Source of the DNA: Bradyrhizobium sp. B124
Lineage (GTDB): Bacteria; Pseudomonadota; Alphaproteobacteria; Rhizobiales; Xanthobacteraceae
Reading direction: 5' to 3'
DNA: 64,000 nt
Assembly (NCBI RefSeq): GCF_038967635.1
Contig: NZ_CP152413.1
Location: 310,001 to 374,000 of the forward strand
The position numbers were made by a program, and so were the translations under genes. How positions within the stretch are numbered: the first letter of the stretch is position 1; the number at the start of each line of letters is the position of its first letter. The notes under the pieces are model-generated. The model saw only the letters and a list, made by a program, of their open reading frames with translations. It was not told where the DNA came from and did not search any database. Of the stretch, positions 46,767-49,475 are shown piece after piece.

Positions 46767-47963
46767 TTAGTGCGTGACCCGCTCGACGGCGATTGCGGTG
46801 GCTTCGCCGCCGCCGATGCACAAGGCGGCGACGCCGCGCTTGAGGTTCTGCGCCTCCAGCGCGTGCAGCAGCGTCACGATCAGCCGCGCGCCGGTGGCGC
46901 CGATCGGATGGCCGAGCGCGCAGGCGCCGCCATTGATGTTCAGCCTGTCACGCGGAATTCCGAGGTCGCGCTGCACCGCCATCGCGACCACCGCAAACGC
47001 CTCGTTGATCTCGAACAGGTCGACATCGCCGACGCTCCAGCCGACCTTGTCGAGCAGTTTTCTGATCGCCGGGATCGGCGCCGTGGTGAACCATTGCGGC
47101 TCCTGGCTGTGGGTGGCATGACCCTTGATCTCGGCCAGCACGGGCAGGCCATCGCGGTCGGCGAGCGAGCGCCGCGCCAGGATCAGCGCCGCGGCGCCGT
47201 CGGCGTTGGCCGAGGAGGCGGCCGGCGTGATGGTGCCGTTGGCGCGGAACGCCGGCTTCAGCCCGGGGATCTTTGCCGGATCGACCTTCAGCGGGTGCTC
47301 GTCATTGGCGATGATGCGCGGACCGGCCTTCTCGCTAAGCGTGATCGGCGCGATCTCCGCCTTGAAGGCGCCGCCCTCGACCGCCTTGCGGGCGCGGCTC
47401 AGCGTCTCCATCGCGAAAGCGTCCTGGTCGGCGCGGGTGAACTGATAGGCTTCCGCGGTGGCCTCGCCGAAATCGCCCATCGAGCGGCCGGTCTCATAGG
47501 CGTCCTCGAGCCCGTCCATCATCATGTGGTCGATGATCCGGTCATGGCCGGCACGATAGCCGCCGCGGGCCTTTTGCAGCAGATAGGGCGCGTTGCTCAT
47601 GCTCTCCATGCCGCCGGACAGCACGATCTCGGCCGAGCCGGCCTTGATGATGTCGTGGGCCAGCATGGTCGCCTTCATGCCGGAGCCGCAGACCTTGTTG
47701 ACGGTGGTGGCGCCGGTGGCGTCCGGCAGCCCGGCGCCGCGCGCGGCCTGGCGGGCGGGGGCCTGGCCCTGGCCGGCGGGCAGCACGTTGCCCATGAACA
47801 CCTCGTCGATGCGCTCAGGCGCAAGCTTGGCGCGCTCCAGCGCCGCACCGATCACATGCGAGCCGAGCTTGTGCGCCGCGAGCGGCGTGAGCTCGCCCAT
47901 GAAGCGGCCGAGCGGGGTGCGGGCGGCGGAGAGGATGACGACGGGATCGGTGCTGGTTGCCAT
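46767..47963 (-). CDS. Acetyl-CoA C-acyltransferase (thiolase)
   Basis: 398 residues. Complete thiolase active site: nucleophile Cys in NKVCGSGMKA (~residue 90), His in GHPIGATG, and Cys in LCIGGGEATA. The N-terminal SAARTPLGRFMGEL is the usual thiolase start. It cleaves 3-ketoacyl-CoA or condenses acetyl-CoA. Third thiolase-fold gene in the window and the only one with both Cys residues. A perfect 12-base palindrome lies upstream. Confidence 0.93.
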   Translation of the reverse strand: MATSTDPVVILSAARTPLGRFMGELTPLAAHKLGSHVIGAALERAKLAPERIDEVFMGNVLPAGQGQAPARQAARGAGLPDATGATTVNKVCGSGMKATMLAHDIIKAGSAEIVLSGGMESMSNAPYLLQKARGGYRAGHDRIIDHMMMDGLEDAYETGRSMGDFGEATAEAYQFTRADQDAFAMETLSRARKAVEGGAFKAEIAPITLSEKAGPRIIANDEHPLKVDPAKIPGLKPAFRANGTITPAASSANADGAAALILARRSLADRDGLPVLAEIKGHATHSQEPQWFTTAPIPAIRKLLDKVGWSVGDVDLFEINEAFAVVAMAVQRDLGIPRDRLNINGGACALGHPIGATGARLIVTLLHALEAQNLKRGVAALCIGGGEATAIAVERVTH

Positions 47964-48018: not shown

Positions 48019-48105
48019 CGCTGCAAAAAATGCAACTCCACGTCCTATGACAAAATGTCGTGTTCGCATGAGTTGGAGGGGCCGGGATGGTTCCGCAATC
48101 ACCAC

Positions 48106-48227
48106 CGTCGTCCCGGCGAAAGCCGGACCCATAGCCACCGCACTTGATGACGAACGGGATTGTGGCCCCAGCGTCGTGCAGCAAATCCTATTTCGGGTAA
48201 TGGGTCCTGGCTTTCGCCAGGACGACG
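48106..48227. repeat. Dispersed repeat, family F
   Basis: CGTCGTCCCGGCGAAAGCCG with GACCCATA at one end and TGGGTCCTGGCTTTCGCCAG with GACGAC at the other form facing ends of a ~120-base element. One copy only in the window. Confidence 0.65.
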
Positions 48228-48355
48228 ATGAGGATGAGGCGCAATTCAAGAGTCGAGCCGGGCGATGACAGTTGAAGATGAGGACGCAGCTTCGCGTTCT
48301 CGCGACATGATTTGTCCGAGCTTTGCTTGTCGTTCCGCCGCTCTGAGGACAGAGG

Positions 48356-48463
48356 GCGCAGGGAAAGCCGGGTGCCGATCGCACCCATGGGCCCCGAGCA
48401 ATGGGTAGGAAGCTCGGGGGTAGGACCACAGGTGTAACCGGAGCAATCCGGCTTTCCCTGCGC
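48356..48463 (+). ncRNA. Strongly folded element of unknown function (structured RNA or repeat)
   Basis: A perfect 16-base closing stem (GCGCAGGGAAAGCCGG at 48356-48371 with its complement at 48448-48463) encloses two hairpins: GGGTGC-CGATC-GCACCC (48370-48386) and CCCCGAGC/GCTCGGGG with a 12-base loop (48392-48419). The remaining interior contains GGTGTAACCGGAGCAATC. This three-way-junction shape is far stronger than chance. Strand is not certain because the dyad reads similarly both ways. I recall similar blocks in other Bradyrhizobium-type genomes, unverified. Small open frames across it look spurious. Confidence 0.5.
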
Positions 48464-48796
48464 GATGGCTTACGGCTTACTTCGTGCTCTCCCCGGCGAG
48501 ACTGGGCTTGTTTGTCACCGCCATCGCAAAACGCTTTCGCGCTCTACGAGAGGACACCTGCCGCTAGGGCGTCAGGACCACACGACTTCACCGTCCGTCT
48601 CATGCGCACTCGTCAGTTGCGCAATCAGCGTCCACCGCATCCCACGCCGCGTTCGTGACGACCGCGAAGCGCCCCTCGATCGGGTGAGATGAGCGAACCA
48701 TACACTGAGTTGCAATTCGGATAAAGCGAAATATTTTTGCCGCGGGGGCTTGCGCCGTCGGGCAACTCAGTGGCAGGGGCCGCGCTTCCATCCACC

Positions 48797-48899
48797 TGTC
48801 ATTCCGGGGCTCGCGAAGCGAGAACCCGGAATCCATTCCACCACCAGCATGCGGCGCAATGGATTCCGGGCTCTCGCTTCGCGAGCCCCGGAATGACGA
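48797..48899. repeat. Palindromic repeat, family A, copy 3
   Basis: TGTCATTCCGGGGCTCGCG...CCCGGAATCCATT and AATGGATTCCGGGCTC...GAGCCCCGGAATGACGA. The best-conserved copy of the family, with nearly continuous arms of about 40 bases. Confidence 0.85.
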
Positions 48900-49013
48900 G
48901 TTGAGAGATCGGTGCGAAGCTGGTTACCAACAATCCGAGGAGTTGATGCAAGCTCCTAAGCACTTGAACACGCAAGCCGGTCTAGAAGGAGTTGCATTGA
49001 CCCAGGAACGCCC

Positions 49014-49475
49014 ATGACCACGCTTCGTATCCACGACGGCTGCAACGGCGCTCTGGCGCTCGATCTTCGCGATCTGATTAATCTGCTTGCTCCGCGCTCG
49101 CTCGAAGCCAGCTGGACGGTTTCGCCGGTCGTGCTGCATGATCCGGCGCTAGACCATTCCTTTGATGAATTCATGATCGCGGGGCGGGGCGCGCCGGGAG
49201 AGGATTTGCTCGAGAAGTTCGCAGCCGGTGGTTCGCCTGTCAGTGGTGCGCTGCTTTCAAAAGCCGCACACGAAACAACTCAAGTGATCTGGGGGCAGTT
49301 TGTTGGCACCCTTCCAGGGAAGAGCGACACATGGATTATGATCCGTGCGATCGACAGCACGTTCTTTGAGGTTACGTCCTCTGATGGAGCGGTCCTCAAT
49401 GCAATCCGCTCGGTTTACAAAGACGTACAGATGGCTTCCGGCCCGGTCACGTCAATTCCGATTGCGCCAGCCTGA
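49014..49475 (+). CDS. Hypothetical protein
   Basis: 153 residues; ATG at 49014 with an AGGAA site. A soluble, mixed alpha/beta sequence (FVGTLPGKSDTWIMIRAIDS; FEVTSSDGAVLNAIRSVYKD) without membrane segments or recognised motif. It stands alone after the repeat nest. I do not recognise it. Confidence 0.7.
   Translation: MTTLRIHDGCNGALALDLRDLINLLAPRSLEASWTVSPVVLHDPALDHSFDEFMIAGRGAPGEDLLEKFAAGGSPVSGALLSKAAHETTQVIWGQFVGTLPGKSDTWIMIRAIDSTFFEVTSSDGAVLNAIRSVYKDVQMASGPVTSIPIAPA

Follow-up and report, generated by a model that had tools for sequence, protein, structure and literature searches.

HEARO/omega RNA is a large structured bacterial RNA that occurs in many copies per genome and adjoins an IscB/IsrB-type nuclease gene, while OLE, GOLLD, ROOL and raiA are large ornate bacterial RNAs that usually occur in one or few copies. 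A structured motif, MRSC-65-2, is presented in the main text of its report as a single long stem with covariation and dozens of copies per genome (PMC11109978). In Bradyrhizobium, the REP elements Br-REP1 and Br-REP2 are described as multi-copy, intergenic palindromic repeats (PMC5082802).

The window analysed here, a 64,000-nucleotide stretch of a Bradyrhizobium sp. B124 contig, contains at 48356..48463 a strongly paired block that is one copy of a dispersed and apparently undescribed family, each member being a probable structured RNA gene of ~400 letters. We give a probability of roughly 0.8 to the reading that these are stand-alone non-coding structured RNA genes whose transcription and function are predicted; the family is possibly selfish. 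Like HEARO/omega RNA, the element is large, structured and present in many copies per genome, but it has no Rfam match and no overlapping ORF in the 13 copies of its own genome. On the downstream side of these copies, an IscB/IsrB-type nuclease was not among the ten genes scanned with Pfam. It resembles OLE, GOLLD, ROOL and raiA in being several hundred nt long and stand-alone with a complex conserved fold, and differs from them in matching no Rfam model and in occurring at at least 54 places in one genome. With MRSC-65-2, as its main text presents it, the element shares a structured motif, dozens of copies per genome and covariation, whereas it has 16 predicted helices instead of a single stem, and an upstream promoter-like sequence (PMC11109978). 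Br-REP1 and Br-REP2 are likewise multi-copy, intergenic and from the same bacterial group, but they are short palindromes and not a 400-nt multi-branched RNA gene; by-eye comparison did not find their printed consensus in the RNA body, which on that comparison does not belong to either (PMC5082802). A full-text literature search of main texts returned no description of the unit, although one in supplements is possible. The names Bradyrhizobium, Rhodopseudomonas and Nitrobacter are absent from the main text of PMC11109978, and the genus and order names sought do not occur in the searched text of PMC6429828 and PMC8632094.

The conserved unit is ~400-480 bp long, so that the 108-nt junction makes up about a quarter of it. 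A BLAST search of the 9.17 Mb genome gave 41 matches, of which 13 were long, the window copy included (the other 12 span more than 320 bases); these 13 were aligned, many of the remaining matches being short and lying at query edges that overlap neighbouring repeats. Conservation in the alignment runs from ~48280 to at least 48690, and the surroundings differ copy by copy. The RNA of the unit lies on the minus strand from ~48690 to ~48290, and the minus-strand alignment (A2), the consensus fold and the fold z-scores place the conserved RNA-coding body at 48289..48693 (minus), with the RNA 5′ end at ~48690 and the end of the 3′ hairpin at ~48299. The block sits in a 1.05 kb intergenic region between a thiolase gene on the minus strand (start 47963; Pfam Thiolase_N and Thiolase_C), which is downstream of the RNA, and a 153-codon frame on the plus strand (49014-49475, without a Pfam match). 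Palindromic repeats flank the block on both sides, confirming its placement in a repeat nest by the preliminary description, and the 153-codon frame adjoins this nest. By a heuristic based on frame length and base composition, none of the 13 own-genome copies has a coding-like ORF overlapping the unit, and all 13 are intergenic. One plus-strand frame of 85 codons (48401-48658) was considered as a coding sequence and rejected, as none of seven word-sharing candidates was homologous at E 1e-3.

RNA helices tolerate G·U pairs, and a G·U pair read on the wrong strand appears as A·C. In the 16-bp stem, which in the window copy is perfectly paired whichever strand is read, compared across 71 distinct segments from a motif search of 149 loci, plus-strand letters gave 38 A·C cells against 2 G·T cells, which indicates that a minus-strand RNA keeps G·U pairs; A·C occurred in 6 of the 16 pairs and G·T in 2, and because the 71 copies are related, a p value for this contrast overstates their independence. 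The 17 pairs common to both strand predictions pointed the same way, with 39 A·C against 12 G·T in plus letters. Pairs predicted only for the plus strand contained 197 G·T and 17 A·C, and those predicted only for the minus strand 30 G·T and 527 A·C, but as the two consensus structures had each been optimised on the strand in question, the strand call rests on the 16-bp stem and the 17 common pairs. Consensus energy was -81.8 for the minus strand against -41.5 for the plus strand. Folded as a whole unit, the window copy gave a z of -4.7 on the minus strand (0 of 100 shuffles as good) and of -1.3 on the plus strand (13 of 100). A plus-strand RNA, with its weaker consensus energy, A·C-type mismatches and weak whole-unit z, was rejected; the plus strand had been assumed earlier, wrongly in view of the stem mismatches, consensus energy and fold z, and by these sequence criteria the RNA is encoded on the minus strand.

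The whole-RNA fold was derived from A2, an alignment of 44 minus-strand copies. From 102 loci, three of which had no anchor motif, 75 distinct ones remained; A2 holds 44 of 61 non-redundant segments, leaving out nine divergent ones (L121-L145, with large gaps) and eight others. The consensus comprises 95 pairs in 16 helices with 95.3% of cells paired, a share that is favoured by deriving the structure from the same alignment, so that double changes are the stronger evidence. Such changes affected 41 of the 95 pairs and 318 cells. Shuffles gave 25.8 pairs and 108.9 cells, none of the 500 reaching the observed values, and slid-partner controls gave at most 22 pairs and 69 cells. The double changes fell in 12 of the 16 helices, helices 2, 3, 6 and 14 having none. 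At the RNA 5′ end is helix P1 (48638..48691, minus; arms 48684-48691/48638-48645), which as helix 1 is 98.0% paired with 3 of 8 pairs double-changed. It is followed by a central multi-branched domain (48464..48636, minus) containing helices 3 to 10 and closed by a long-range helix (48632-48636/48464-48468, minus) that shows one-sided changes only and no double change. On the 3′ side, a hairpin (48299..48320, minus; helix 16) is 95.7% paired, again with 3 of 8 pairs double-changed. Long unpaired stretches, for example GGGGAGAGCACGAAGUAAGCCGUAA, are highly conserved as well as the stems. Compensatory base changes thus support one fold, other genera included, as in a structured non-coding RNA gene. 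The preliminary description had proposed a structured RNA and named many copies with compensatory changes as its test; since these were found, the proposal is strongly supported.

Several details of the junction domain (48356..48463, minus), supported by covariation and by the strand comparison, had also been read correctly from the single copy. The arms of its 16-base closing stem (48356-48371/48448-48463) are complementary at 16 of 16 positions with 76 nt between them, both inner hairpins are present at their described places, and the repeat GGACCACA does occur inside and outside the junction. The three-way junction was borne out by comparison of copies, but not by the lone sequence: the minimum-energy fold of the window copy is, on either strand, a long rod that omits the GGGTGC/GCACCC hairpin, and the RNAalifold consensus of the junction is also a rod. 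Folding of the 108-nt segment yields -63.9 kcal/mol for the plus strand (z -5.6) and -70.5 kcal/mol for the minus strand (z -9.2), with 0 of 200 shuffles as good in each case. The GGGTGC/GCACCC hairpin (48370..48386, minus; 48370-48375/48381-48386) covaries across genera: in an alignment fitted to it (A4, 45 chosen loci aligned to its model), 3 of its 6 pairs are double-changed, in 9, 11 and 1 of 45 copies. Its loop forms a predicted pseudoknot on the same strand (48377-48380 with 48436-48439), in which 90.3% of cells are paired and the four pairs are double-changed in 15, 1, 19 and 1 copies; this pairing is compatible with both the rod and the three-way junction. The second hairpin, here CCCCGAGC/GCTCGGGG (48392..48419, minus; 48392-48399/48412-48419), is variable, with 17 distinct stems at its position among the 44 copies of A2. 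Because one hairpin covaries across genera and the other exists in 17 stem versions, a pseudoknotted three-way junction is favoured over the rod on comparative grounds. A second pseudoknot, CAGGTGT/ACACCTG, was seen by eye in own-genome copies and rejected, as by-eye inspection of the other A2 copies did not find it kept.

Promoter-like sequence precedes many copies. By a sigma70-type score, 44 of 47 copies in L121-L148 and L154-L195, nearly all of them from other genera and a few from the window's genus, reach the control 95th percentile, as do 37 of 86 copies in the window's genus. The score does not by itself distinguish the strands: of these 133 upstream regions, 81 pass in forward orientation and nearly as many, 68, when reverse-complemented. 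Among the copies listed, the usual form is TTGACA, 16 to 18 bases, and TATATT or near. Between its end and the motif GAGGGGCG lie mostly 19 to 23 bases, a spacing that would put the predicted start at helix P1. The window copy has, immediately before the RNA, a weak promoter-like pair, TTTATC-17-TATGGT (48697..48725, minus), which scores 8.4 where the control 95th percentile is 7.78, while a strict promoter scan of this copy returned no promoter. A search of the window copy for terminator-like sites found none on the minus strand and two on the plus strand.

Each copy would make a large RNA, ~400 nt in the window's genus and longer in several other genera, in whose predicted fold a 5′ helix is followed by the multi-branched central domain and then by the junction domain with its loop pseudoknot. 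Such an RNA would be transcribed and would act in trans; judging from its form, and because conservation covers long unpaired stretches as well as stems, it would most likely be the RNA part of a protein-RNA complex. Copies would multiply by duplication and be kept similar through recombination between them, and many of them could be dead. If transcribed, the family would be a class of large structured RNA that no Rfam model covers, present in 57 of the 60 genomes sampled from the genus and in several named records. It is unusual for a folded RNA of 400 nt with compensatory changes to occur dozens of times in a bacterial genome, and this raises the questions of what holds so many copies under structural constraint and of how bacterial non-coding RNA genes multiply. 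Some of the extended repetitive stretches between genes in these genomes may also be due to the element.

In the window's genus, BLAST with at most ten candidates scored per genome matched 57 of 60 sampled genomes, the window's own included; family-wide, BLAST matches came from 31 of 119 genomes, representing 14 of 47 genera, and in the class only the window's own genome matched among 240. A covariance model of the junction region (R1) matched 92 of 198 genomes in the family, its own included, and 22 of 47 genera. In the order it matched 11 of 249 genomes, three of which belong to a single other family and have one weak match apiece (a second model matched the same 3 of 8 genomes of that family), and in the class 3 of 385, namely two of the window's genus and one possibly contaminated draft. 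The matches in G818, a genome from another family, lie on 5- and 8-kb contigs of a draft with 5% contamination and may themselves be contamination; L175, L202 and L203 likewise come from fragmented drafts. Matches per genome numbered 17 in the window's own genome (G000), 41 in G427, 94 in G443, 26 in G021, 12 in G446, 23 in G494, 28 in G132 and 1 in G618, totals that derive from up to 150 scored candidates per genome and in which some copies are counted again through weak antisense echoes. In distinct places, the six complete genomes hold at least 16 (G000), 21 (G427), 54 (G443), 17 (G021), 12 (G494) and 22 (G132) copies; the G443 genome measures 7.3 Mb. Among the few named records tested, those that match the model are from Rhodopseudomonas palustris (two) and from Afipia clevelandensis, Tardiphaga and Bradyrhizobium (one each). 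Searched in distant mode, which may leave out near relatives, plasmid and phage records gave no match at E 1e-5. A 24-base match in a Paenibacillus record was rejected as not being the RNA, for it has no model match. One good copy is present on L302, an 84 kb contig from the IMG/VR viral collection that is a candidate prophage only.

Among the copies listed for six genomes, 95 of 142 are oriented with replication, taking the origin at dnaA and the terminus opposite. Taken individually, G443 (38 of 54) and two further genomes (10 of 12 and 14 of 17) reach p<0.05, and the other three (12 of 21, 12 of 22 and 9 of 16) stay above it. When the replication axis was fitted freely to the listed copies, only G443 stood out, with 3 of 200 permutations as extreme, and we give the strand bias little weight.

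The alternative that survives best, which we hold at slightly under even odds and which is compatible with the main reading, is that of a mobile but non-autonomous element with an RNA or fold that promotes its own spread only and performs no service for the host. The dozens of dispersed copies, the REP-type palindromes that often adjoin them, the presence in relatives of matching sites that are intact, internally deleted or mostly lost, and two paralogue pairs that are near-identical over the RNA would all suit it. At the L005 site, for example, the element is intact in G004, G010 is without the RNA 3′ part but keeps the 5′ part, and G042, G049 and G044 have largely lost it, with remnants of one or both ends; at the L008 site only end pieces are left in G004. 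However, at these two sites compared in related genomes there was no clean empty site and no target duplication, only internal deletions with remnants, and because the altered sites keep remnants they indicate loss and not insertion. Neither a mobilising or associated enzyme nor an insertion event for the element was found, and plasmid and phage records are without a match, though the viral-collection contig carries a copy. The preliminary suggestion of a mobile non-coding element accordingly stands as to dispersal and copy number, but not as to an insertion event, target duplication or mobilising enzyme.

Shared sites and paralogues also bear on how copies change. At the L001/L053 site a 619-column segment containing the unit is 82% identical while its flanks are 96-98% identical, and at L006/L052 identity is 87% over unit and flank against 97% for the flank alone; L005/L118 (92%) and L009/L023 (88%) are each identical to that degree in one piece with no visible drop. 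These comparisons suggest exchange with other copies at one or two of the four shared sites only. The paralogues L192 and L193 show no differences over the RNA up to the 3′ hairpin and then differ, and L181 and L182 show two differences over the RNA, the stretch ending slightly before the 3′ hairpin. In both pairs the near-identical stretch starts approximately where transcription is predicted to begin, directly following bases that differ in the interval from the -10 box to the RNA, an arrangement that prompts the speculative and rather unlikely reading of a bacterial counterpart of SINEs, that is, a promoter-bearing structured RNA from which genomic copies would be made or overwritten via RNA. 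Against this reading, similarity with scattered differences continues upstream in both pairs (751 columns at 94.4% and 713 columns at 95.0%), and in G443 the closest pairs of the 37 copies compared have no sharp edge, the upstream 60 nt being 45% to 97% identical; this comparison used the 37 of 40 copies that were long enough, a stricter motif having retained 15 of 40. The paralogue patterns would be explained equally by DNA gene conversion acting together with constraint on the RNA.

We consider it very improbable that the element is the remnant of some known RNA class missed by the Rfam models, such as a group II intron or HEARO/omega RNA. Size and copy number recall HEARO, but none of the 4227 families of Rfam 15 matched the window or seven diverse loci at the gathering threshold, the Rfam covariance models for group II introns and HEARO/omega RNA were not among the weak matches to E 5 either, and the 13 own copies are free of overlapping coding-like ORFs.

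The position of the thiolase gene, which starts at 47963 downstream of the RNA and on the same minus strand, could suggest a cis-acting leader or riboswitch of the next gene, yet we consider this very improbable. A palindrome lies between the RNA and the thiolase gene, and the gene past the RNA 3′ end has the same direction in 6 of 12 own copies and the opposite direction in 6 (the thirteenth copy has no such gene). Of the 12 downstream genes, the ten scanned belong to different Pfam families, the eleventh is the thiolase gene, and the twelfth, outside the scan, is that of L012. Because half of the 12 downstream genes are on the same strand and the ten scanned differ in Pfam family, the element is very probably not a cis-regulatory leader of one gene.

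Just as improbable is the idea, raised earlier, of merely a folded DNA repeat (a palindrome or MITE-like repeat like the adjoining REP elements), which fits the many copies among palindromic repeats but is unsupported on its own, because a DNA hairpin would not prefer G-T or A-C mismatches whereas those of the 16-bp stem are strand-asymmetric (38 A-C against 2 G-T on the plus strand), and against which also stand the compensatory double changes in 12 of 16 helices, the covarying loop pairing and the conserved unpaired stretches.

The neighbouring REP palindromes are repeats separate from the RNA unit. Past the RNA 3′ end is a REP-type palindrome with 27-nt arms (48098-48235; inverted repeat I2, not assigned to a strand), and upstream of the RNA gene is another with 52-nt arms that are 88% complementary (48791-48904; inverted repeat I1, likewise unstranded), which by-eye comparison likens to the printed Br-REP2 consensus (PMC5082802). 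REP-type palindromes adjoin many other copies too, with at least two sequence types just past the RNA 3′ end. An inverted repeat, CACTGAGTTGC/GCAACTCAGTG, surrounds the upstream region (48701-48773), and at similar positions other copies have direct repeats of GGGCAAATCA or GGGCAACTCA; these upstream repeats are possibly binding sites. On the opposite side, the motif GCTGTTTGACAGTTGAAT, or one near it, follows the RNA 3′ end in several copies (L174, L185-L193) from more than one genus and may indicate where the unit really ends.
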